Assembly (NCBI GenBank): GCA_003693705.1
Contig: RBZT01000635.1
Span: forward strand, 1 to 64,000
DNA from: Polymyxa betae
Lineage: Eukaryota; Endomyxa; Phytomyxea; Plasmodiophorida; Plasmodiophoridae
Reading direction: 5' to 3'
Length of the DNA stretch: 64,000 bases
This document shows positions 6,338 through 64,000 of the stretch, piece after piece. Position 1 is the first letter of the stretch, and each line of letters begins with the position of its first letter. A program made the position numbers and the translations under genes. The notes under the pieces were generated by a model that saw nothing but the letters and a program-made list of their open reading frames with translations, was not told the origin of the DNA and did no database searches.

Positions 6338-8059
6338 TTACAGAGCAGAGTAGAAAGCCAACACGAAGCAACCAGCGATGACAGCAGAGAGTGTTGCAGT
6401 CAATGCAGAGCTCTTCGATGTGGATTTCGAGCCGGACCCGGTGCCTGTCGTTCCAGGTGTTGCAACGACCACGCTCGGATCGATGGATTTGTCACCGCTG
6501 TAGGTGACCTTGATGACCTGCGACGAATAGAAATCGAGGGCGTACAGAGCCGTATTGGCACCGGTTCCAGCAAACATCAAGCCGACGATCTGTCCATCTG
6601 TGGCTGTTGGACCATTGTAAGCTAACAGCTGCATCTTCGTCGTGTCTGCACTCGGCAATCTGTTGTAGCTGGTTAGAAGAGCATTTTTTGCTAATTAAGT
6701 TCTCACCCTTTGTCGTCGTTCGCCAAGACGAAGATGCACTGCATAGAAGAATCCGCCCAGAACAGACGGTTCTGGTATTTGGAGCCCCAATCCGACGAGT
6801 TCATGAACATGAAGGCGGCAGCAGAAACCGTGCCTCGCATGCAGTGATCTTGGGCGCCCTCGACACTGAATCCTCTCGTACGGGAATAGGCGATGAATGG
6901 CCTCGTGTGAACTTTGGCAACATCGGCACATCCAGCGTCGGCACCGAAGGACGGCTGCGCGACGTTCCCTTCGAAGCACGGCCAGCCGAAGTTCGGAACG
7001 TTCGTGTTGGTGAGCGGGTCGGGAATGATATCGATCTCTTCGAAGAAATCCGAGCCGACGTCGCCGACGTACAGATCGTGAGTGATGGGATGGATCGCGA
7101 ATCGGAAAGGGTTTCTGAGACCTGAACGCAGGCTTAGTGTCGATCATCTTGCAATCGTTCGAAATTGCCACCTTTCGCCACGATTCGTGCTCCGTTTCCG
7201 ATTGTAACCAAGGCGTTGCCATACAAAGCCTCCCTCGACAAGTAGAACACTTTGCCATGCGTGTAATCGTCCCATTGGGATCGCCAGGCGCCCTGGAATC
7301 GGGTGTCGCCATCTCGATGGCATGGTTGGCCAGGTGTTCCTCGATCCTGAACAGTCCCATCAGATCTTCACAGCTCTCTGATTGCAGCGATACTGTACCG
7401 GATTGGTGTAAGAAGCGCCATCACCACCCGACACATACAAACCGCCATCACGAGCCCAATCCAGATTGCCGATGTGGTGTGAAAGCCCGTTCGAGCACCA
7501 TCCATACATCAGGAGCTGATCTATAGCGGCCGTGTTGCCGGTCACCCTCAGGCGGTATAATCGAGCCGCTTGATCGCAGGCGGCGCCGGCGTTCATGGAG
7601 CCGCCGTCGCCAGCATCACACGAGTTCGGCAGGACGTTGGCATCGGTCGTTGGGCTCTCCAGACGCCGCACCGACATCAGAACCCAGAGGTATGGGCTCG
7701 TCGGGTAATTCGGGTCGATGGCCAAGCCGAGCATACCCCGATCGCCCCAGGTCGATGTCAGATCGCCTTGTGCTTGCCAGACGAGAACCGCATCGTTCTC
7801 GCTGGACGTGATCGACGGGAACTTGCGAATGGAGCCGTCTTTGGCGCCACAGAAGATCTGAAACGATTTTTAGAACGAATGAGAGCTGTTTTGAATGGCA
7901 GTTTCGAACCTCGCCATTAGGAGCGGTCAGAATTTTCGCACAAGCGCCGATTCCACCGCCCCAATAGTGTGCTGCATTCCAGTTGGCTGCATCCTGAACG
8001 ATAATCGAGCAGACACTCGAGATGCCAAGCAACAACGCCAACACCGAAGCCCTCTGCAT
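6338..8059 (-). CDS. Secreted glucose/sorbosone dehydrogenase-like protein, GPI-like tail (paralogue B)
   Basis: The start at 8059 gives a signal peptide (MQRASVLALLLG). It aligns with paralogue A exon by exon: 'IDPNYPTSPYLWVL', 'GGDGASYTNP', 'GAWRSQWDDYTHGKV', 'GLRNPFRFAIHP', 'NFGWPCFEGNV', 'AQDHCMRGTV' and 'NRLFWADSSMQC'. Some introns are shared (after 'PNGE', after 'SYTNP', before 'LRNPF', after 'ANDDKG'). The introns that in A follow 'HGK' and 'HCMRGS' are absent here. The C-terminus is a Ser/Gly/Thr spacer followed by a hydrophobic end with no basic tail, as expected for a GPI-anchor signal. The two paralogues therefore probably sit on the cell surface with different anchors. Confidence 0.83.
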
Positions 8060-8207: not shown

Positions 8208-8776
8208 TCAATCCTTATTTATACCAAGAATACGAACTCGGTGCATGACTGGACTTTTAGCAATTAAAACGATAGCCAGAGCGATACTGTTTGCAACTGC
8301 CAGCTCGACGTTCCAATCGCTTTCATGAGAAGCCAGCAGAAATCTACACCCGAATATTAAAATCAAACGAATGCATAGATAAATAAATCTCACATGATGA
8401 CAGGAACAATAGCCAAAAATTTACGATTTGTGGTATATTGGGTTCCTCTATCGATTTGTTCCCAGAATGTCTCCTCATCGTAGATGCCTTGGTCTTCAGC
8501 GACCGGAGAACCTTTCTTCCAATGAAAGAGAAAGAACGTCACCTGGGCGAGCGTAAAGATTCGAAACAGCGTTAAAACCTGAGAGATCCTTACTGCTGAA
8601 TGGACCTGATGAACGACCGTCCATGCACAATGATGCCAATGCAAGACTGGGACGGCGAACAGCAGGTATCGGAAAATCAAGACCACCCCAATGTAAAACG
8701 CCCAAAACCCTTTCTCGTCCAAAAACGAGACATTCCGATTATCAAAACAATCGGCCTCGTCCCCTGTGTTTTCCAT
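8208..8776 (-). CDS. ORMDL: ORMDL family ER membrane protein
   Basis: Three exons. Exon 1 has 'NVSFLDEKGFWAFYIG' and TM1-2. After a 54-nt intron the protein continues 'VTFFLFHWKKGSP', then 'FWEQIDRGTQYTTNRKFL', the ORMDL signature (human HWEQLDYGVQFTSSRKFF). The last exon, after an intron at about 8343-8391, ends 'MHRVRILGINKD', matching the usual GVRIFGINKY end. Family members are ER proteins with four TM segments that bind serine palmitoyltransferase and restrain sphingoid base synthesis. Length is about 150 residues, normal for the family. The N-terminal phosphoregulated extension of budding-yeast Orm1/2 is not obvious. Confidence 0.92.
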
Positions 8777-17401: not shown

Positions 17402-19096
17402 CGATGCTGTCGCCGCCCAAGCCGGAAGAAGCTGCCCTGCTGGGCGCAGAACCGGTCGAAGCGAAGGCGCCTGCTGCATCGCTGCTACTGTCCCGATCGC
17501 AGGCCTTGGCCCTTAGCATCAAGGTCAGTTCATCAACCAACACATTGCTACAATAATGACAGACATGGATGTCTGCAACCTCCATTTTGCCTTTATAAGA
17601 GTGTCTATAAGCACCACTGTTGTTTATGTTATCATGGTTCTGCACCTTCTCTTTTACTGTTATAAGAGTGCCCTCGTATTTATCAGTGTCATTTCTGTCA
17701 TTGCTTATCAAATGTCGTTTCCCTTTTCCGCAACCTCCATTTGGCCTCTATATAAGCACCGCTGTTGTTTATGGTATCATGGTTCTGCAACCCCTTTTTA
17801 CTGTCTATAAGAGTGCCCTCTTATTTATCAGTGTCATTTCTGTCATTGCTTATCCAATGTGGTCCCCCTTTCCCACGATAATGAAAACGCCTGGTGTACG
17901 GTATCATTCTCTAATCGTGTCTAGTCGACAGTTGGGAGTGGCATCTTCGCGATCCCGTTCGGGTTCAGGCTGGCCGGCTTGATCGGCGGCGTCCTGATTT
18001 TGACTCTGACCTTCGCGTTATCCTATATCGGTGGCTTATTGCTTCTGCGATCCCGGCAGCGTTCGTTCCCTGGCGTCTCCAGAGTCACTTGTAAGCAGTA
18101 ATTCGGAAGTTTGTCATCTTCCTAAACATAGTTTACAGACAGTGATGTCGGCCATCATTGGTCTGGTTCAAAAGGGCGATTGCTGGTCGATTCAATGACT
18201 GTCGCTTTGCAAATAGGGACAATATTCGCTTATTGCATTTTCATTATTGAGACTTTATCGAATGCTTTACCATCGGTCGAACGAGCCGCTCTTGTCGTCG
18301 CCCTTCTGCTCGCCCTAATTCCCATATTGCAATTGCGACGAATTGAGTCGATCTCGTTGATCGCAGCGGCTGCCGATATCCTCGCTGTGGTCGGGTTAAT
18401 ATCCTGTATAGTCTTATTGGTGACGTCTCGTGACAGCGGGGCAGTCGTTTCGACCTCAGTAAGCTCGCAAGCATGGCTATTTGTTGGAATAGCTTTGTTT
18501 TCGGTAGAAGGTGTCTGCCTGGTCCTACCTGTTCAATCGTCGATGGCGAATCCATCCGAATATAGACAAGTCTGGTCATGGACGATGCTAAGCGTCTTCA
18601 TATTATATCTCGTCTTTGGAATTCTGGGCTATGCTGCTTTTGGAGATTCTACCGATGACATCATCTTGAATAATTTCGCAACGTCTGATATCAAACGAGC
18701 GACTCAAGTAAGAATCAATAGTCCACCGATAAGATTTCTGATAAATCCTCTTTCTAGGTTATTTATTGTCTGGCTTTGCTGCTTTCCACAGCAGTCCAAG
18801 CTGTACCAGCTTTTGAGATCGTAGAACGCAATGATACGAAAGCTTATATGTTGACCATTGCATTGCGATTGGGTCTAGCAGCCATGGCCGCCATCACAAC
18901 AATGGTAGTTCCTGGATTTGCGATCGTCGTTTCGTTGATCGGTGCTGTATTCGGATCGGTGATGGCGTTCGGTCTCCCAGCGGTAATAGTGCTGAAGTTA
19001 GAACCCGGGCTATCCAGGCTGAAGAGGTTTGGCCTTTATTTACTCGCTGCAATATCAGTCTCCAGCATTGGATTAGGAATAGCAGCCATGGTTTAA
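17402..19096 (+). CDS. AAAP family amino-acid transporter
   Basis: Exon 1 encodes a Pro/Ala-rich cytosolic N-terminus ending 'LALSIK'. A 401-nt intron (17524-17924) joins it to 'STVGSGIFAIPFGFRLAG', the AAAP TM1 motif. Further exons give 'LLRSRQRSFPGVSRVT', then 'YSDVGHHWSG', TM segments to 'ATSDIKRATQ', and a last exon with 'LLSTAVQAVPAFEIVERN' and terminal TMs. The family moves amino acids with protons at the plasma membrane or vacuole; substrate unknown. The start at 17402 is chosen because the in-frame region upstream lacks an ATG; an undetected 5' exon is possible. Introns other than the first are about 50 nt. Confidence 0.85.
17575..17873 (+). repeat. Tandem duplication inside an intron
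   Basis: Two imperfect direct copies, 17575-17729 and 17730-17873, both starting at 'gcaacctccattt'. Shared blocks include 'gttgtttatg(t/g)tatcatgg' and 'atttatcagtgtcatttctg'. They lie wholly in the first intron of the transporter and explain its length of about 400 nt. The units differ by small indels (155 and 144 bp). Confidence 0.9.
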
Positions 19097-40412: not shown

Positions 40413-43400
40413 CTACTTTCCGAAGCGACTCATGCGAGGTCGCAGATTGTAGAGGCTGGGCCGTCCTTCTGGCATGGCTGGGGCCTCGTCTTTAGCTTGC
40501 TCCTCAACCTGGTTTACGGATGGCTGCTCTTCCTCGTCTTCAGCTTGCTCATCACCCTCCTTTTCGGATGACTGCTCTTCTTCGTCTTCAGCTTGCTCAT
40601 CACCCTCGTTTACGGATGGCTGCTCTTCCTCGTCTTCAGATTGGTCCTCACTCTCGCTTACGGATGGCTGCTCTTCCTCGTCTTCAGCTTGCTCATCACC
40701 TTCGTTTACGGATGGCTGCTCTTCCTCGTCTTCAGATTGCTCCCCTTCTACTTCAGACAATTCTTCGATGTCATCAATCTCCATCTCCTCTGTTAATCAC
40801 AGATTACAAGTGAGAAGCGGATGGCGAAATTGACCAAAACCGATATCAGATTGGGAGTCTTCGGCCGGGCATCTTGGACCGGAGAACATCGATACGATGC
40901 CGTCGATTAAGGAGGATCCGATAGCTGACAACAAATTACCTTTGCCAACTAATCGCTTGCTGGACGTGTCTTCCGAATGGGTCTCCTCACCAGTCTCTGG
41001 AAACCAGCAGTCAACACACATTAAAGCTCTCGGAGGAAAGAAGACGCTGTTTATATTTTCCAAAAAACTGGTAAATAGCGCAAAGTGAAAAAGTAAATGA
41101 TTGATTTCAGCAGCAAGAGAAATAAAGCAAGAATAAATTGCAGACGTCAATATACCCGAATCAGATGAGGAACTTTCAGCAGCTTCATTATCAGCAACAT
41201 CTGAATAGACTTGTGAGGAGGACAACGATAGAAAGAATTATCCAAGCCTACCTTCTGATCCTGATGACAGCATAATAACATTCACTAAACGACATCAGAA
41301 TAACAGCAATTTTCAGCAAAACAAAAGATACCTTCGCCGCTCTGAGCATCGCTGGACTCTTCTATCGATCCTAATTGCGATTAAATTTAAAAATGGAAAT
41401 TTCAAACAGAATGTGAGCTGTCAAAGCAAATTACCTTCGCCAGATTGAGACAGCGATTGAGTTCCGCTATTCGCGTGGTCTGAATAAAGGAGATGAACAA
41501 TACTAATTCGGAACAAGAACAATACGACCATGATGTGCAAGGCTAGGAGGCTGTTTAGCGGCGGCGAAGTCGTCCTCTATCAGGGAAATCAGCGAAACAA
41601 TACCGGCGGGGAGCGACCGACACACTACCTTCAAGCATCTGGGTCATCTCCATGGTCATCTCTAAAAGCGAATCAGTCTCCAGAAAGGAAGCCAGAAGTC
41701 CAATGAACAAAGTCGGCTGCGAAAACCGCAACTGGAGAAACCAAGCACAGACAGCAGCTTAAATCAATGTATCTTTACCAGTAGATTCTTCGATTGGGAC
41801 GGCGGCCTCGGTGTCTACAAATTTGCAGTCAGCCCAAGGAAACCCAGCTACAAACGTTCGTGTTCGATACCGGATAGAGGCGATCCGGGACCGCGAACGT
41901 CAATGACGACGGGTTCGGGGGAGGGTTTCAGCTGGTCTAGGACCTCGTCGTGGTCGCTCTCGAACTCGATCGACGAATAATCCTCGTCAGCGACAGCCCC
42001 GTCGGTCAAGATCGCATCGTGATCGTCCGCTTTCGTCGACGATAGTTGTTGCAATTTGATTGAGATTTGTTGAGAAGGCACAAACTGAAATGAGCCACCG
42101 ACCACGGTATCGGAGATCGGTGCTGATTCTATTAACATATTCGTGCTCTGGAACAATATGAGGACGATTTCGTGCATCTATGGGTGCTGTGACCTTGGTC
42201 TCAGTAGGCGACAGCTTCGGGTACAGCATTCCGTTGACAGCGGGTTGTTTTTCCTCCAGGCGGAGGGTCTCACCGACCGGCGCAGGCCTATTCGTGATAA
42301 GAGCGAGTTGACAATAGAGTAAACATCGCGAAATAAAGAATAAAGAAATGCAATAAATATCATCAGAAAGTGAGTGCAAGGCGAATACGACTCGTCCAGG
42401 CTATGAGGGCAGTATTACCGGAAGGACATGGCGGGAAGAGATGAATTAGGCAAGACGCTCGCGCAGCAATTGAACAGCGACCGAGCTCGGAGACCGTCGT
42501 CAACATCAAACAGCGGATCGGCACTCGCCTGACGACGGCGTTAGAAAAGCGATATGACCCATATTGCCAGCACTAAACGAACCGTGGGAGGGGGAATCGG
42601 CGAGTTCGACCCAGGCAGTACAGCTCGCTGGTACTTCCGTAATGCATCGTGAATGGCGCGCTGGCGAACGGCACTCGAACTGTAACGAGAAAGAGCCGCA
42701 TCATAACGTGACCGGTAAAGGTCGCACAGGATCAGGGCATCCGCACCCAGAACGTTGCCTGTTGAATTCATCAATCATGGGCGGCCGAGGCACAATGACA
42801 GCAATGTAGACCCAGTTGTTCGATCTGGGTCTGTTTCAGGGGAAGAGCACAGAGAACGTCGACCTGCCTCTTCTCAGCGAACCAAACAAAGAAAGCATCC
42901 AGGTAGGGAGTGCAAGGCTTCAGTGTTTCGAAATATTTTAAGCACTGGAAACAACATCAATAGAGCGAAGAAATAGTTAATAAATAATCGATATAAGAGG
43001 CGTTTGGTACAAAATAGAACAAAACCACTCAATTATGTCATGACATGGGCAGCATCGTACCTCGACAAAACGACCGTTCTCGAGCAGAGCTTGGCAATGC
43101 AGGCAGATCGATTGTCGGGTCGCGTCTTCACCCTGAGACCGGAAGATACGTGAGGCCTTCAAAGCCTTCTCCGGAGACTTCAGCGACCCCAGCAGTACTG
43201 ATACTATTGTGGATGTTAGCGATAGCTGCGACAGCAACGAGCCGGAGATGCTCAGGTATTTCTATCAGCAACGTCAGCAGCCGCGTATAGTCTATATCGA
43301 AATCACGCATACGAAAGCTTGCGAGACATTTTCGGTGTCCTCCTGGTCCGAGCGCAGAGCCTCGTCCAGATGCCAGAGCGTTCGGACCATCGCTGTACGT

Positions 43401-53764: not shown

Positions 53765-56700
53765 ATGGAGGATTCCTGCAAAGTTGCTCAACGCGTTTCG
53801 ATTGGCTTAATCCAGGAGGATATTCAGATTCCTTCACTAAAACCCAAATCAACTAAGATCACTCCTCAGTATCCGAAAGGTTTGGGAATATCTCCCATAT
53901 CGTTGTTTCCTTTTATGTATTGGTTTCAAGTTCAAGCTTAGATGCTTCCCGAGTAGTTATTCTTATTTAGAGTCCTGCTTCTTGTCTGGCGGCAATGGCT
54001 CCATTGATGCACTACCCAGCGCTGTTCGTTTTGCTGGATATCGCATTAATGAGCGTAACGTCCAGACTATTCAAATTCGGAACCGCTCCCTGCATCAGCA
54101 GCGAGTTCACGTCCTTCTTCCGAATACTATTGAATTTGATATTCAAACAGAAAATAAGGTATGCAAGATTGTTAGAATCGCTCTGTGGTTCTGATCCTTA
54201 AAAGGGCTGGATAGCACCTGGCCTATCGCTCACAGTCCGGATTATCTTCAGGCCGACTGAATGGAGGCACCATCATGACGAAATTATCGTTCGCCACAGC
54301 GACGGCGCCTTTATCGTCCCATTGGACGCTTTTCCGATCCTAGCCGATGCCGTCTTCCCAAATCGCATTGATATGGGCTTGTGTTCTGTTGGTCTCATCT
54401 CACAGAGGAATGTGACATTGCGTTCTACGATACCCTTCCAGTTCGAATTCACACTCACTCCAGTCAAGACGTCGACCGAATTCTCTGTCACCCCACTAGC
54501 TGTATAAAGCGTCTCATTTAGATTGGGTTTTGATGTTCTTGATACTTAATTTCGTAGGGGATCGTCCCGGGTAATGGCCAGATCGACATTACCATACAGT
54601 ACCATCCGCTGCATTGCCATACGAGCGAGTTTCTGTTTCAGGTCCAGATCTCAGAGCTGTTCTTCGAGCCGTTTATATGCTATGTATCAGGATCGGCATC
54701 ATTTCCCAGTGAGGGTCAGAAATCGATTGGTGAAAAACCATCTCCATCACGAAAGCTGTTCGTCATTGCTCCAAAGAGCATTGGTCCCAGAACGCTGAAA
54801 AGTGCTCGTCAGTTTGCAGCATGTTGTTACCTCGTATTTTTGACAGTTTTTAGGCGAAGAACGTTTGCTACCCGAGACAATCAATGGCATCATCATACCT
54901 GAAAGAATTTTAGGAAGACCCAGTGCTGTCAATTTCGTTTTATCTCAAGTACGCCGAGACGTCCAAGGACAAAATCAGAATTCAGAAAACCGAAATCGCC
55001 TTGGGAATCAAAATGCTATTGTCTCTGGTGAGAAAATGGAAGATATGAAGTACTATTCTGATGGTTTGCAGAAGAAGACGGAAACAGTGACATCGTTTTA
55101 GATAATATTGATTTCTCTGGGCGTACTGCAGCAGAAAAGATTGCTTTTTTTGAATTTGAATATCAGAAAGCGGTTGATTTTCGGAAATTGATAGCCAACA
55201 AGAGATCCTGGAAAAGGATCGGTAAAGGGAATGTTGGTATTCAGATGCTTTCTTATACAGCTTTATCAGGTCAGAGGCTGCTTTCAGATGACCAGAAGCG
55301 GGTGATAGCGGAAAGATCCATGTTGTTAAAACAGGAATTTGAGCGCCAACAAATTCGGTCAACCAGTATGGCAGTTAGTTCCGTTGTTCTCAGATTGCGT
55401 TTAACTTCGTTTTGCTTTAGATGTTAATGATGCTGTTTGTGTACCAACCGGATTTCAAGTAAATGTGCAACCGTCATGGGACCTGTCGAAGTCGCAGCGA
55501 AGCATTCACATAAATCGAACTGTCGGGCAATTGTTGCTGGCTTTGAACAAAGCTCTTATTCGACACCGAGTCAGCGAACGAATCGAGAAAGTAGAGAAAC
55601 CAATTCTGCTACATCCTCGTGTTCTTAAAATCATATTCAGATGAAAGTTTCTCTTCGAGAGTTGCAAGGCGCAGAATCAGTCCTTGAAGACGATCATGCC
55701 CAAGAAGATGTTCACCCCATATTCCTTAAAGATGGCATTGCAGCGGACTCTATTACATCCTCAGAAGCAAGTGATGTCTCTGTGAAAGCAGATGACAACC
55801 ATAGATTCAGTGATTTAGACGAACAGCCATACTTTCCCACAGTCGACATTGGCAAACTAGAAAAACCGCTCCCTGATGTCCCATTATTCCAAATATCCGA
55901 CGTAATCTCAAGCCATGAAATCTTGCGGTTTCCTATAACTCTACTCTAGGTTCAGGAATGCGACCTGAAAGGATATAGGACATTCTCAATGGATCCTTTC
56001 CCTGGTAATGTTTCACTTTCAGTTCCGGGCTTTACCTCGCCTCGCGTTGGAGCACAATCTGAAGACCCGATACTGGAAACACGACCACCGTCAATAATCT
56101 CTAGGGTTGTTAACCGTCCTGAAGACCAACGTTTAGAGCCGGATCGCCCTGAGTATATTGTATCCCGCCGTTTTTGTGCACCACTTCAGTTAGATACTGT
56201 AATCCACATTGCTGTCTCTCGTTTCAACAAGCACATTATTTTGTTTTAGGTTACTGAAGCTGATCCGACATTTAACTTGAACCAGCCCATGGTTGTTGCA
56301 TTACGCGCTCCTAAAAATTGTGATGGCGCTTGCAAAGAGCAATCCTCCCGACATTTAACCGAATTGGTAAGGGTTACTGACTGAAACTGAGGTGGGTGAA
56401 TTCAATCCCGTCAGGGGCAAGAAAGCTTAGAAGCCCTTTCTGAGTTACCAACATTTGGCAAATATTGGCAAACGTCGCGCCACTGTTCTGATATCACTAT
56501 TGATCTTACGTTTGAATTGTCAAAACCTGTAAACAATGCTGATTTCCAGAATTCTGCTGCCGAAAAAAAACCAGCTTCTGTATACAATCCATGCGATCAT
56601 TGCTACAATGTCTAACTGACTTGTGACCTCTAGGTTTCCGTTCCATCTTTGGATGAAGCTAAGAGCCTCTTCAACATCCATCTACAAGTATCGCCAGCTA

Positions 56701-56849
56701 CGGGTTTTGAAACGGCGAGATCTCGGTCGTTTAGCAACATGAACGACAAGCGCAAACAAAGTCTAGATGCATTTCATTCTCGAATTCAGCATCGCCTCGA
56801 CATGCCTGATCTTCATATTAACTTCTGTTCTCGTCCATTTATAGAATAA
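53765..56849 (+). CDS. CFAP221: CFAP221 (PCDP1) central-pair ciliary protein
   Basis: About a dozen exons. Exon 1 starts 'MEDSCKVAQRVSIG'. ASH/MSP-like beta domains follow: 'VRFAGYRINERNVQTIQI', 'PGLSLTVRIIFRPTEWRHHHDEI', 'FIVPLDAFPI', 'GLCSVGLISQRNVTL', 'GIVPGNGQIDITIQYHP' and 'FEPFICYVSGSA'. This order matches human CFAP221, which reads 'LHFGGYEV', 'VPGLSYTVTIAFSPDEW', 'LVPIHAYPV' and 'SGIIPANGKVTVTIKF'. The middle has 'LSGQRLLSDDQKRVIAER' and the tail is low-complexity, ending 'LHINFCSRPFIE'. The protein belongs to the C1d projection of the central apparatus, where the Chlamydomonas homologue FAP221 binds calmodulin. Part of the 3' end is duplicated as a remnant near 61.9-62.45 kb. Confidence 0.9.
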
Positions 56850-56933
56850 TCAAGCCGTAGTGAATCTTGATTGTAATGGATTTATTCATCTTGGGCGATT
56901 AAATTAAGGACAACGAATTGTAAGGAAGTAGCG

Positions 56934-59900
56934 CTACCAAGCAATTTTCGCAATAGGCGATCTTGGATAATTTCTCACAAAATATTTCCGAATTTCATCG
57001 ACAAGGACAATGGCAGCTAAGAAGCCGAATGGAATAAACCAAAAGCTGACAGGGATGGGCGTTGTGTTGAATATCACCTGAATCCAATATCCATAAAAGA
57101 TAATGATACATATAGCAATATTGCAAGCAACCGAAAATAAGATAACTAGATTCTGACGTGGACCCCATAACGGATTTGAGTTGAATAATGAAACAGTTCT
57201 ATTTCGGACGGCGAGCAGGACCCCAATTTGACAAATGGCCATCGTCAAATAGTAAATGCACTGTCCCTTGATGACGGCGTTCGTTAAATGATCCAAGGGC
57301 ATCCCTCGCCAGTATGGGCCCCAACGATTGAAAGCAAAGATCAGATCATAGAAGCCCAAGCCCTGGGTGCTCATATACAAGAACCACATTCCCATAGAGC
57401 TAATCCAGACCAGAGGTCCAATGATCATATACAACTGTACGAAAAATCTCCAGTCTGTCAGTCGATCAGTTCGTGCATTCCTGGGCGGACGAGCCATTAA
57501 GTTTCCCTCCGATTTCTCATACATAAGGGCAAGTGCCATGATCAGATCATTTGTCATGCAGAACAACAATTGCTGAAAAGCAGACAATGGAGGTTGCATG
57601 CCAAAAAATGCAGTCGACGCTACAGCCACAAATTCAGTGTACGTACCTGTCATACATACGAATCAATACAGTCGCACGAGAATTAAGAGATATCTCATAC
57701 CAGCAGTCATCACATACAGTAACACTTTCTTCAGATTTTCAAATACCAGCCGTCCGTTCTCGATACCAACCAATAATGACGAAAATGTGTTATTAAGCAT
57801 GATCATGGTGGCCGCCTCTTTGGCAATGTCGGTCCCACTGCCCATACTGATGCCAACATCAGCAGCTTTCAAGGCCGGAGCGTCATTGGTACCATCCCCT
57901 GTTACCGCTACGAAATTGTCTCCGCGTTTCCTCAGATTATCCACGATTATGAGCTTATGCTCAGGGGTCGTACGAGAAAATACGATCTCGTTAAACTTAG
58001 TGACAATGTAATCCCAATCGTCTTGAAAGAGATGCACGATTTGAGATCCATTGATTACGATAGCATGAGGTGGTGAATCTTGTTGAGGACGGAGCTCGTA
58101 TGCAGTAAGATTGTGTGGCAGCGGGTCCCTTTCTCTTAAATTCTCCAGATCAGCAACGCGATGGATTTGATTGTCTGGGACAGTTATAATTCCAACGCTC
58201 CTTGCAATAGCGCAGGCCGTTAGCTCAAAGTCTCCCGTGACCTGTCCCAACCCAGAGTTTATAGAAGTCAATAGAAAACATTCCAATCAAACCAATACCG
58301 CAAATAAGACCAACGTTAGGTCACTAAAAGAAATCCACATTACCATGAAAACACGAATTCCAGCTTGGCGCAGTCTTTGCACAGCTTCAGGAACTTCCTG
58401 CCTTGGCGGGTCCTTCAAGACGAAGAGCCCGATCATGTCCAGGCCCTGTTGAATTTCGTTCATAACAAAAGTTTCCAAGGCGTCAACTTGACCGATAGGA
58501 ATCGAATCGTAATCCAGCAATTTCTCACAAAGAGCGATTACACGATGGCCTTGCCTGCTCGCTGCATTTTTGATATTTTCTATAGCCTGCCTCCTTTCTG
58601 TGTCCAATTCAGAAATGCTGCCATCAGATTGCATCACATTTCTCGAAGATCGGAGCAGAATATCAGGAGCGCCTTTAACTAATAATATCGCTGAGCCGCT
58701 CTCCATTTCCATGATTTTCGCCATGAATTTGTTCTGCGCATTGAATGCAAAAGAAAACAAAATTTCGTGATTGGGGATATCAGGGAATAGAGGCGTCATT
58801 CTTGCAACGAACTGGAGAATGGCCGTATCAGTAGGGTCACCAACGACTGGACGATCTTGAACAGGTAGTTGTTCTGTATTGGCCTCGAATATGGCATCGT
58901 TACACACCCTGGCAATGCATAGTAGAAGAGGTAGAGCCGCCATGTCCAGACTGGTCGGAATTCTTCCTTGGCAGATTGGGACGTTGGCATCAATGAACCA
59001 AATCGAGCAAACAGCCATTTTTCCAACAGTTAAAGTCCCGGTTTTGTCAGAACACAGCACCGAAATACAGCCGAGCGTTTCGACCATGTTCAGATTCTTC
59101 ACCAAGGCATTTTGTTTAGCCATCCGCCGGGCAATAATAGTCAGAGCCAATGCGAAGCAGATCGGCAAACCCTGCGGAACGAACGCTGAATGCATGCTAT
59201 TAGCGGAAAGGGCTCGAGGAGATTCTTTGTTGTTACCGATTAGACATCCAATGGCTTTTATGATAGCACCGGGGGCTGTTTCATAACCTGGATAAATATT
59301 CTCGATCCAACCGCCCCAGACAGCTAACGCCAGACAGAAGAAAAATAGAGCGACCGCAGATATGACAATAGTGAAGAAGGCGATATCTTTCTGGATCGGT
59401 GACAACACAGTCTTGTTAGCACCCGCGATCGACATTTTGAGAATAATTCCAATAACAGTATTATTCCCGATCTTGATCACAATTCCAAGGGCGCTCCCTC
59501 GAGAGAGAAAGGTCGACGCCAGTCCCATATTCCTCGATTCGAGCGGGTTGAGGCTTGTTGCTTCCACTGAGGCCGGTACGGGTTGGCTCTCACCGGTTAG
59601 AATCGACCGATCGAAACGAGCATCGGATGAGACTTCAACCAATCGAAGATCTGCAGGAACGCGCTGGCCCTGTTTCAAACAAACGATATCTCCCTCGACC
59701 AAAGTCTCAGCATCGATTGTTGAAACTTCGCCATCGCGTATTACCATAGCTGTATTCGCCTCCAAACTTTGTATTGATGCCATCGTACGCGATGTTTTGT
59801 AGTCAACGAGCGCATAGAAAAACGCTGAGGTGACAATGACAATGATCAGCATGATTCCAACACCCAGTTGGAATGCGGATGCCTTATCGCCAGATAACGG

Positions 59901-60374
59901 CTTCCATGAGATAAACACCATGATAGTGGCAATCCACATAAGGAAATTGAAGCCACCAAATACATACACTATGAGCTTCTTGAAATACTTTCTTCTTGGC
60001 GGGGTTAAAGCGTTGGCGCCTTTTTCAAAATGACGTTCGGTAGCAACTTCGGACGAGAGTCCTCGCGTTTTATGAGTGCTGAGACGACGGCATAATCCAT
60101 CAATGGGCTCACTGAGCTCGGGAAGAATTTCGTAACTCGGCACAAACGGTTTGCCTTGAATGGAAAGGCTGGTTTTGGCACTCAAGGTCCGGTATAGCAC
60201 AGGAATGCTGGGATGTGATTCAAAAGTGGCAAATGCAGCCATTGTTGATCTGCAAACAGCCTTAGACCAACAGAAATGGCGGTTTTGTGAAAGCACAGAC
60301 GCCCAAATATAAACGCTTGAATCAATTCGAGTTGATGGCAGATAGAAGCGTTCAGATAGCACCAGATGATTCAT
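56934..60374 (-). CDS. Type IIC (Na+/K+-ATPase-like) P-type ATPase, copy 1
   Basis: Three exons: 60374 to about 58330, about 58250-57710, and about 57653-56934. The ATG at 60242 (MAAFATFE) is an alternative start. TM1-2 follow 'ALTPPRRKYFKKLI'. Next come the actuator motif LTGESQPV, TM4 'FVPQGLPICFALALTI', the phosphorylation site SDKTGTLTVGK, the nucleotide site 'LLVKGAPDIL', hinge 'GDGTNDAPALKAADVGISMG', and TM5-10 with 'CMTNDLIMALALMYEKSEGN' and a C-terminus 'RNYPRSPIAKIAW'. In TM4 the usual PEGL glutamate is Gln, and the TM6 'DLGTD' is replaced by 'MTND'. No beta subunit is seen nearby. A second copy begins at 62551. Confidence 0.92.
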
Positions 60375-60909
60375 CTAATTACTTTGGATTGACTATTCGC
60401 TGGAGTGATATGTTCTAAGCAATGCGAGAGATGGGCTTTGGAGCGACGCTTGTGCTTCATGTTCAGATTAGCTCCCGAAATCGCTTAACTAGTGATCCTG
60501 GCTATGGTGTTTTCCTTCCTATGAAAGAAATGAGAAGAGAGAGCTGATGCCTTTGTAAAGTGTTAAACTGGAGCAGCCTGTCGCCGAAGAGGCTGCTCCA
60601 TGAAACGATTTTAGAAACAACATTTTTGGCTCGTGAAAGTTGACAGTCTCATTTCAGCAACCGATCGAAAACATTAAGCTGTCCACTCAGCTCAGCCGAA
60701 GTCGTTTAGATCATTTCGGCAGTGCTCAAAGTGAGAATTCGGCCGCGCTTCAACTACGAGACCTGTTCTAGGATATAGCCAGAAATTTGACTTTCCCCGA
60801 GCTTCGAGCCTTCAACGATATCTGACTACCTCGCATCATGATACAAAGCATTATGACCTTTAGTGTTTTATCATGGCCATGCTCTCATTGTATATAACTT
60901 GTCATTAGT
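60375..60909. other. Intergenic, nothing recognised
   Basis: 5' flank of ATPase copy 1. A hairpin-like palindrome occurs near 60570-60605 ('gagcagcctgtcgccgaagaggctgctc'). No exon seen. Confidence 0.4.
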
Positions 60910-61555
60910 TTGGCTATTCCAGATTGTTCACTTACAGGTCTCAAGCTTGGATTAATTAGCGGAACTTCTGACTGTAGTTTGAAATCGTACGACTCCTTTC
61001 GGCTCATATCATCAGTATTAGAAGGCATCAGTCATCTGCCCAATCTGTGGGAATTTGAAGGCGTCATTCCAGCTCTGGGACCAGTCTGGTTTGCATCTGT
61101 ACTATGGGAACAGTATCCGAAGCCGTAGGTTTTGCAAAAAACGGCTCTTGTTTTTAAACCATAATGTGAACAATTTTGCTGCAGGAACTTGAGGCGCTCT
61201 ACTGTACGCTGAGCTTTGACAGTGTGGTGGCGATCAAATGGAATCCATCGGGAACCGAAGTTGCTGCCGATCAAGACCCTACAAACTGTTTTCCAGCTAC
61301 TGACAGTTCCCTTGAACGGACTCCAATCTGCTGCAGTTACTGCCGGATCTTAGAAACTGTCAACGTCCTGTGTCCTCCTAATACCAATTCCTGGATATGG
61401 CTTTCAACACCTTTCAATGCTGGTCTGAAATGAACATCGTACCCCAACTACGAAACGCTACCATCAGCGCTATCGGCTGCTGAACAGGCCATGGCCATTA
61501 ATGACCGTTTGGTTCAGCATCTTCGTTTTGGGGATGTATCTGCTTTTTGACAATG
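60910..61555 (+). pseudogene. Coding-like remnant with in-frame stop
   Basis: Two plus-strand blocks look protein-like: 60910-61126 ('LPNLWEFEGVIPALGPVWF') and about 61185-61550 ('SFDSVVAIKWNPSGTEVAAD', 'LCPPNTNSWIWLSTPFNAG'). In the second, a TGA at about 61431 is followed in the same frame by 'YPNYETLPSALSAAEQAMAI'. The link between the blocks (stop TAG at 61126, poor donor) does not splice in frame. I do not recognise the parent family. It may be a decayed gene, or a gene whose introns I misread. Confidence 0.35.
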
Positions 61556-61899
61556 TATTGTGCACTTTTTACTGTTTCTTTGTACAGCCTAGATGTTCTA
61601 CCTGTTTGTTCGTCCAAGATTTGACGCCGTTTGCAAAGTGGGATATTTGACGAAAAGATTAAGAACGAATACCTAGGTGTATATAAGAAGCAAAAGCTAG
61701 AAAACCCAGAGAGAAGGTGAATAATGCAAACTAAATTCTCACTAACAAAGATATACTACAACTTTAAGAGCGATTTAATGAAATAACAAGCTTTCAAGCT
61801 TCCAAAGCAAAGACTCTAAATCAGTGACCAGACAATGGTGACTCTGTTTCTGACATTGAATTCGTTAATGATGCTGTAAATTCTGTCAAATTTATCTAG

Positions 61900-62450
61900 C
61901 AGTATTTGATTCGTTTGCTGCGTTCACACCTGTAGCCAATCCATGATTGTTGTATCACACTTCCGATCCTGATGGCAATTGCAACGAAAAATCTTCCCAG
62001 CATTGATCCGAATTGGTTTTGAGTTGCTGACTGACTTTAAGACATGATGGAGCTGGGCATAGAACATTAGAAGCTCTTGCTGAAGCGCTCTCCTTCAACA
62101 GAGACTGGAGTATGTCGCGAGACTGGTCTGATATCATTACTGATCCCAGCTTGGGACTTTCAAGGATCGATAAGCGCAGTGATTTCCAGAGTTTTGATAG
62201 CAAATTGATTTCCAGAGTTTTGATAGCAACGGAAAGCCACAGCTTGTGTGTTTTGTATTCAGTCATCCTGTGCTGAAGCAATGTCTTCTTACCTTGCAGA
62301 TCTCCTTCTCATCATTACGCCAAGCACAGTGCCAAAGCTTCTTGAAGGCAAATCTACAGCTACCGTCGTCTACAGCTTTTGAGACGGCGTGTGTTGAGTC
62401 GCAAATCAAATCTGAATCCGTTCAGTCCTGAATCCTGAATGCTCCGAAAT
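61900..62450 (+). pseudogene. Degenerate copy of the CFAP221 3' end
   Basis: Blocks align in order with the last exons of CFAP221. 'CNEKSSQH' at about 61980-62003 matches 'CKEQSSRH' (56330-56354). 'GHRTLEALAEAL' (62060-62090) matches 'GQESLEALSEL'. 'SRDWSDIITDPSL' (62115-62153) matches 'SRHCSDITIDLTF'. 'LQLPSSTAFETA' (62350-62388) matches 'LQVSPATGFETA' (56680-56715). The frame is broken: a stop replaces part of the exon after 'SSQH', a local repeat 'gatttccagagttttgatagcaa' occurs twice at 62181-62230, and the tail stops early. Its position just after the end of the second ATPase mirrors the CFAP221-ATPase order at 56.8 kb. Confidence 0.75.
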
Positions 62451-62550
62451 CCCTGATCCTCGAATGAAACAGTAGTCAGAAAGCATGCCATAGTTGTAAA
62501 AGATTTATTTATGTCTTGGAAGTCGCCAAATGCGTTATAAAGGAGCAGCG

Positions 62551-63998
62551 CTACCAAGCAATTTTTGAAATAGGCGATATTGGATAATTTCTTACAAAAT
62601 ATTTCCGAACTTCATCGACAAGGACAATGGCAGCTAAGGAGCCGAATGGAATAAACCAAAAGTTAACAGGGATGGGCGTTGTGAAGAATATCACCTGAAT
62701 CCAATATCCATAAAAGATAATAATACATATAGCAACATTGCACGCAATCGAGAATAAGATAAATAAATTCTGACGTGGACCCCATAACGGATTTGAGTCG
62801 AATAATGAAACAGTTCTATTTCGAACGGCGAGCAGGACCCCAATTTGACAAATGGCCATCGTCACATAGTAAATGCACTGTCCCGTTGAGATCATAGCTA
62901 ATAACTCATCAGGCGATTTACTTTGCCATTTTGGCCCCCAGCGACCAAAAGCAAAGATCAGATCATAGAAGGTTAAGCCCTGGGTGCTCATATACAGGAA
63001 CCACATTCCCATACAGCTAATCCAGACCAGAGGTCCAAGCAAAAGGGACAACTGGATGAAAAATCTCCAGTCTGTCAGTCGATCAGTTCGAGCATTCCGG
63101 GGTGGATGATCCATCAAATTCGCCTCCGGTTTCTCATACATAAGGGAGATGGACATGATCAGATCATTTGTCATGCAGAACATCACTTGTTGAAAAGCAG
63201 ATAATGGTACTTGCATGCCAAAATATGCATGTGAAGCGACAGCAACAAATTCAGCGTACACACCTATAGAAGCTCACGGATTAGACACAGCCATAGCAGA
63301 AACCGATATCTCATACCAGCCGTCATCAAATAGAGTAAAACCTTTTTTAGATTTGCAAAAACCAGTCGACCGTTCTCGATACCAACCAATAGGGACGAGA
63401 AGGTGTTATTAAGCAAGATGATGGCAGCCGCCTCTTTGGCAATATCGGTTCCACAACCCATACTGACGCCAACATCAGCTGCTTTCAAAGCCGGGGCATC
63501 ATTCATTCCATCACCAGTTACCGCTACGAAATTGTCCCCCCGATTCCTCAAATTATCCACGATGATGAGCTTCTGCTCAGGGGTCGTACGAGCAAACACC
63601 ATCTCGTTGAATTTAGCGGCAATATAGTCCCAGTCATCTTGAAACAGATGGTCGATTTCAGACCCGTTAATCAAAATAGCGGTTGGTGGTGAATCCTGTG
63701 GAGGGCGAAGTTCATATGACAGAAGGTTGTCTGGCAGCGGATCTCTTTCTTTTAAGGCCTGCAGGTCAGCGACACGCTTAATCCGGTCGTCAGCAACAGT
63801 GATCAATCCGACGCTGCTCGCAATCGAACAGGCCGTTAGCTCGAAATCTCCCGTTATCTGATACAATGTAAAGTTAATCAATTATGGCTATCAGAACCAA
63901 TCTGATAATATAAATGCGGACCAAAAGTCACGAAACCTCAAAAGGTGCGCCCTTTACAAAAACACATCACCATGAAAACCCTGATTCCAGCGTTACGC
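62551..63998 (-). CDS. Type IIC P-type ATPase, copy 2, 5' part outside window
   Basis: C-terminal half only; the gene continues past 64000. Exons are about 63998-63972 ('MRNAGIRVFM'), about 63857-63317 and about 63261-62551. They contain 'GDGMNDAPALKAADVGVSMG', 'RTTPEQKLIIVDNLRNRGDN', 'AFQQVMFCMTNDLIMSISL' and the same C-terminal end 'NYPISPISKIAW'. Intron positions are identical to copy 1, and the protein is closely similar throughout. It differs in the extracellular loops (e.g. 'GRWGPKWQSKSPDELLAMI' against 'NRWGPYWRGMPLDHLTNAV') and in GDGMND against GDGTND. No stop or frameshift is seen, so it is probably functional. Confidence 0.9.
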
Positions 63999-64000
63999 AT

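Follow-up and report, generated by a model that had tools for sequence, protein, structure and literature searches.

How does a genome come to hold two closely similar ATPase genes, one behind the other on the same strand, with a decayed scrap of the neighbouring gene caught between them? The question is raised by the end of contig RBZT01000635.1 (here C41) of the Polymyxa betae assembly (24.4 Mb, 541 contigs), of which bases 1–64000 form the window analysed here and which ends at position 64415. The plus-strand gene CFAP221 (53765–56849) is followed by two minus-strand ATPase genes of type-IIC-like character, A1 (56934–60242) and the 3′ part of A2 (62551–64000), while a third copy, A3, and a more divergent paralogue, B, lie on another contig, C461. 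The explanation in which we place high confidence is that a stretch of the order CFAP221–A–B was duplicated in tandem at least twice, that the flanking genes were truncated and decayed at the inner junctions, and that the A copies were then converted by one another.

The spacer between A1 and A2

A1 has an open frame of 1033 amino acids and three introns (59186–59236, 58242–58343, and 57647–57700). The A2 part in the window is open after splicing and continues to the contig end; its two introns there (63264–63316 and 63858–63970) occupy the codon positions of their A1 counterparts, and the first A2 intron, on the partner contig C461, also falls at the A1 codon. In the self-comparison of the window by blast, the two genes appear as a repeat of 56918–58244 and 62535–63860 with 83% identity. 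The preliminary description of this stretch had identified two ATPase genes in the same orientation with matching intron positions, and had placed a degenerate copy of the CFAP221 3′ end downstream of the second; both observations hold.

The CFAP221 remnant lies on the plus strand at 61928–62550, retains introns, and is colinear with 56274–56935 as far as the A2 3′ end. Over 61928–62552, 392 of 587 aligned bases are identical to 56274–56935, with 24 gaps, so that the alignment runs beyond the short blocks first quoted; blastn aligns 61928–62409 with 56274–56737 (expectation value, E, 1.5e-20). The remnant scores z = 16.3 against 200 dinucleotide shuffles, and its reverse complement scores 488 against a shuffle mean of 482. 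As local alignments with looser gap costs overextend, they were used here and below for z-scores alone, and remnant coordinates are those of alignments with stricter gap costs. The window self-comparison shows just a weak piece of the remnant (56321–56384 and 61970–62034). A scan of the genome with the CFAP221 protein returns 61965–62195 as the top match outside the gene, with two stops (E 0.0098), but the next matches are barely behind (one on contig C217 at E 0.018 and another at 0.031), and this match is weak in itself; more weight goes to the DNA alignment.

The divergence of the remnant is nearly flat, with Jukes–Cantor (JC) distances of 0.40, 0.41, and 0.46 at codon positions 1, 2, and 3 and 0.49 in noncoding sequence, which, together with the stops in the matching frame, is as expected of an untranslated piece. 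The ATPase was thus retained while the partial CFAP221 copy decayed, as had been proposed earlier. The alignment crosses two CFAP221 introns, and the remnant is therefore a DNA copy; an origin by retrocopying is ruled out by the same introns. A small direct repeat is also present in this piece (62180–62229), with the same 24 bases at 62180 and 62206.

Between A1 and the CFAP221 remnant, two further plus-strand pieces derive from B. The first (60639–61391) covers the 5′ flank together with some of the first exon and matches rc461 6937–7683 at 483 of 706 aligned bases, where rc461 denotes coordinates on the reverse-complement side of C461 (38816 bases) over the region C461:30001–38816. The second (61424–61626) surrounds the first intron and matches rc461 8351–8568 at 138 of 199 aligned bases. 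About 670 bases of B are absent between the two pieces, and the B start codon is not retained in the alignment; against B, 60400–61900 scores z = 20 and 61392–61900 scores z = 9.1. The duplicated block had been described as a CFAP221 3′ end plus one ATPase gene, a delimitation that has to be given up, as the B remnants in the spacer show that the block extended further, with its end inside the divergent paralogue.

The spacer accordingly reads, from left to right, A1 5′ flank, B head, CFAP221 tail, and A2, which is the leftover expected of a duplicated unit consisting of CFAP221 tail, A, and B head, and which brackets the junction between B head and CFAP221 tail to 61627–61927 (no strand assigned). 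It is colinear on both sides, the CFAP221 remnant standing to A2 as CFAP221 stands to A1, and A1 standing to the B remnant as A3 stands to B. The same orientation, colinear flanks, whole outer copies, and decaying inner copies are those of known tandem duplications by unequal exchange with truncated genes at the junction, and the process lies within that known class; what differs here is that remnants of two flanking genes are joined, and that the junction is bracketed to about 300 bases.

From an ancestral order of CFAP221 (plus), ATPase A (minus), and ATPase B (plus), at least two duplications would have followed, the likeliest mechanism being exchange between copies out of register. Each would have copied a whole A gene and, along with it, a cut-off part of CFAP221; at the junction in the window, a cut-off 5′ end of B would have been included as well. 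The outermost CFAP221 and B would have stayed whole, while the truncated inner pieces, having no function, would have decayed, and purifying selection would have kept the A copies open. Gene conversion among the A copies would have come later, with its clearest trace in the last 88 codons, a weaker one in other parts, and the weakest in codons 420–800.

The probable array beyond the contig end

C41 ends within A2 at a point matching A1 at about 58790, and the end of C461 matches A1 at 59026; the two are probably neighbours with about 235 bases missing between them. On this join, C461:37603–38816, in complementary orientation to the C41 end, would be the 5′ half of A2, and the order onward is A2 5′ half, spacer, A3, and B. 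A3 is open (1036 amino acids; 3′ end at rc461 2795), and B, its head-to-head neighbour, is intact and open (1040 amino acids). Of the rival accounts, the one that survives best leaves the contigs unjoined and takes the half gene on C461 as a further copy, so that the array would be longer or would lie in two places. The stretch without sequence at the contig join gives it some room, but the contig ends fall in complementary halves of the same type of gene, in the right orientation and without overlap. Nor is any of the six genomic DNA matches to A1 another truncated A copy (a separate protein scan lists 55 matches, 44 out of 73 candidates having been scored; none of the distant ATPases among the 55 was checked for truncation). 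We regard this account as improbable.

The spacer between A2 and A3 contains a second CFAP221 remnant, in which rc461 2378–2672 matches 55381–55668 at 182 of 276 bases (blastn E 2e-11); it derives from further upstream in CFAP221 than the first, and the looser test of the whole spacer against CFAP221 gives z = 5.1 only. The A3/B spacer yields no CFAP221 remnant (z = −0.3). Next to the second remnant, rc461 1495–2283 is a decayed 789-base piece that matches a gene at C187:56552–57356 (598 of 770 bases identical, 25 small gaps), which starts where the similarity between the A2 and A3 5′ flanks stops. This piece has stops and frame changes, its JC distance of 0.27 is below those of the CFAP221 remnants, and Pfam searches with two open frames of the C187 gene yielded matches that all fall short of the curated cut-offs. 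Provided that C41 and C461 are joined, the array would hold at least three A genes, arising from at least two duplications, and its second spacer would have been further rearranged.

Mosaic divergence and the remnant clock

Compared pairwise, A1, A2, and A3 share 76–78% protein identity (77% over 953 codons for A1 and A2), with nonsynonymous divergence (dN) of 0.13–0.15 and whole-gene synonymous divergence (dS) of 0.54–0.66; from dN/dS ratios of about 0.20–0.27, all three look to be under purifying selection. The synonymous divergence is distributed as a mosaic. Over the last 88 codons, the fourfold sites differ at 3/31 (A1–A2), 2/34 (A1–A3), and 3/32 (A2–A3), corresponding to divergences (K) of 0.10, 0.06, and 0.10, whereas over codons 420–740 the differences are 30/75, 48/102, and 32/73 (K 0.57, 0.74, and 0.66). 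Codons 800–900 are low for A2–A3 just by itself (4/37 fourfold sites). The mosaic was evaluated by 5000 permutations per gene pair, with the range of synonymous divergence and the longest unchanged run as statistics. The observed range was reached in 15 permutations for A1–A2, 0 for A1–A3, and 1 for A2–A3, and, in the control comparisons with B, in 534 (A1), 1093 (A2), and 3134 (A3), with no clear departure from chance. In A1–A3, a run of 50 same-residue codons without synonymous change was matched in 0 of 5000. Synonymous identity is thus clustered beyond chance among the A copies and not against the outgroup B, and gene conversion among the A copies is the best explanation of the mosaic.

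A different cause of the low 3′ divergence, namely constraint on the DNA itself, for example through an overlapping convergent transcript, would leave the array as described. CFAP221 and A1 are indeed convergent, with about 85 bases separating their stop codons. Against B, however, A1 shows differences at 18 of 23 fourfold sites within its last 88 codons, a level like that in the rest of the gene, and this normal divergence makes DNA constraint unlikely as the cause; moreover, no CFAP221 gene lies opposite the A3 3′ end, where only a remnant ends about 120 bases off. Such constraint is therefore given little credence, and conversion is retained in what follows.

Patchy synonymous divergence with near-identical tracts is likewise known from interlocus gene conversion between paralogues, for example in human segmental duplications; in the present case, a decayed noncoding remnant between the copies adds a second estimate of divergence. 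The preliminary description had proposed such a remnant as a neutral clock for the duplication, and this proposal stands for part of the gene. The two CFAP221 remnants give JC distances of 0.44 and 0.45, and the 5′ flank in the B remnant gives 0.42. If one lineage evolved neutrally and the other was partly constrained, the CFAP221 values would correspond, as a rough estimate, to a neutral divergence of about 0.3–0.4 per lineage, which predicts 0.6–0.8 between two A copies. This prediction fits the core (0.57–0.74) and not the C-terminal end (0.06–0.10), so that remnant K and core fourfold K agree under a simple model. As the A copies appear to have exchanged sequence, whole-gene synonymous divergence is unfit for comparison with the remnant, and the least converted core is the usable part. 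Remnant divergence is itself biased downward by the aligning of decayed sequence and, without outside calibration, gives relative time only.

Several observations weigh against the combined account of tandem duplication and conversion. The interval 61627–61927 aligns to neither CFAP221 nor B, and the breakpoint is not readable. The B remnant, unlike that of CFAP221, is not flat: its first piece has JC distances of 0.51 at third and 0.32 at first positions, and only 2 of 35 first positions differ in the second, as if part of the difference had arisen on the constrained B side. The A2/A3 spacer has no detectable B remnant (z = 1.6) and holds a piece of an unrelated gene, so that it does not repeat the first junction. 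The longest unchanged run is not unusual in A1–A2 (1285 of 5000 permutations) and mildly so in A2–A3 (293 of 5000), and the whole-gene dS lies at or little below the remnant prediction. Finally, the evidence on the order of the duplications conflicts: a protein tree pairs A1 with A2, windows favour differing pairs, and site patterns gave no decision, although differing pairs by window are what conversion would cause.

The preliminary description had a single unequal exchange copy the block, with the remnant dating the event. Its core, a tandem duplication at the DNA level, is upheld, and the window by itself shows exactly two A genes and one CFAP221 remnant; but C461 carries a third A gene and a second CFAP221 remnant, which count through the contig join and provided that C461 is not from a different organism or location, and the synonymous divergence between A1 and A2 is not uniform. 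A single event is accordingly considered most unlikely. A fragmented assembly with a contig ending inside a gene might suggest that an allele or an artefact of assembly accounts for the second ATPase or for the remnant, but this reading can be dismissed, since A1 and A2 lie on one contig, are too divergent for haplotype or assembly copies, and differ in their introns, and since the first-spacer DNA is found once in the genome (plus B for the B part).

What makes the locus valuable is that a bracketed junction, the remnants of two flanking genes, and copies of mosaic divergence occur together. It provides a compact case for setting a noncoding scrap against coding copies that arose in events of one kind, and it shows that parts of a gene can seem several times too young when tandem copies are dated by their synonymous divergence. 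Literature searches for CFAP221 with chytrids, or for conversion with pseudogene fragments, returned nothing, which is not proof that such cases are unpublished.

The ATPase family and CFAP221

Pfam finds E1-E2_ATPase and Cation_ATPase_C in A1. The best NCBIfam model for A1 is the type IIC model TIGR01106 (best of the 23 families listed), but its 621.3 bits fall below the curated cut-off of 946.1; scored for A1 alone, this result supports the type IIC label given earlier as the nearest family and not as full membership, and the gene is therefore called type-IIC-like. The best solved relative of A1 is the Na,K-ATPase 2zxe, and the closest named proteins are from chytrids (Boothiomyces, Gorgonomyces, Terramyces, and Phlyctochytrium; 51–54% identity), on which ground the source of this DNA was taken to be a chytrid and thus probably a flagellate fungus. 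The motifs DKTGT, TGES, and GDGxNDAP, which we take to be the P-type catalytic motifs, are all present in the A1, A3, and B translations, and in A2 the first two lie on the 5′ half and the third on the 3′ half.

Animal pumps have a glutamate in M4 (VPEGL) and a first aspartate in M6 that are presumably ion-site residues. A1, A3, and B read VPQGL in M4, and VPEGL occurs in A2 alone (C461:37603–38816); the M6 aspartate of 2zxe stands opposite a C in A1, which therefore carries neither residue of the animal pair. Among 23 motif-bearing rows of the protein set used for the tree, 19 read VPQGL or IPQGL, three others have S, A, or I, and A2 has E; one row lacks the motif. Taken together, these features could mean that the pumps are tied to one another by recurrent exchange of the C-terminal membrane end while the nucleotide-binding middle diverges, with A2 VPEGL marking a differing core and ion choice and the scraps recording the onset of divergence, an idea that we consider doubtful.

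The tree contains 24 proteins. Five come from this genome; the other 19 were hand-picked from the 120 homologues listed, so as to cover chytrids, environmental rows without names, and some mushrooms. The collection protein P0002, which is letter-for-letter identical to B, was left out, and the set has no Blastocladiella protein. A1, A2, and A3 form one clade (support 100/100, stem 0.71), within which A1 pairs with A2 (100/99), and the clade adjoins B and a copy on contig C511 with support of 91/88, below the mark. The A genes would thus represent a fast-evolving branch of their own, and the genome an enlarged, fast-evolving set of type-IIC-like ATPases. The dispersed C511 gene (C511:18648–22546) has more introns, is 71% identical to B, and in the tree lies nearer to B than to A1, A2, and A3.

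Passages of a survey of P-type II ATPases in fungi (2006; PMC1479386) report IIC genes in basal fungi, including Blastocladiella emersonii. The present genes resemble the fungal IIC enzymes treated in those passages in their best family model and in having chytrid proteins as nearest named relatives, and differ from them in that A1 scores below the curated cut-off and that the A genes sit on a long stem.

CFAP221, the parent of the remnants, has 12 exons and an open frame of 831 amino acids. Its residues 46–256 match the solved-structure chains FAP360, FAP221, and CFAP221 (E 7.4e-35, 1.3e-34, and 3.2e-33), with CFAP65 and one other chain trailing at E 2.4e-9 and HYDIN also behind; the product is thereby placed with CFAP221 ahead of other Ig/ASH-domain flagellar proteins, through these residues only. 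Pfam reports Ig domains of the CFAP65/HYDIN type and no CFAP221 model. For the C-terminal half, the source of the remnants, no separate clear match was obtained, and its assignment follows from the exon model. In a large protein collection, no relatives appeared among 7999 and 7994 scored candidates, although the word-based prefilter may miss them.

Elsewhere in the window, the self-comparison by blast shows a diverged inverted pair of segments (1020–2155 and 6705–7758; 65–76% identity in pieces) and direct repeats of about 160 bases at 40484–40743 and 17572–17874, with 91% and 84% identity, respectively.

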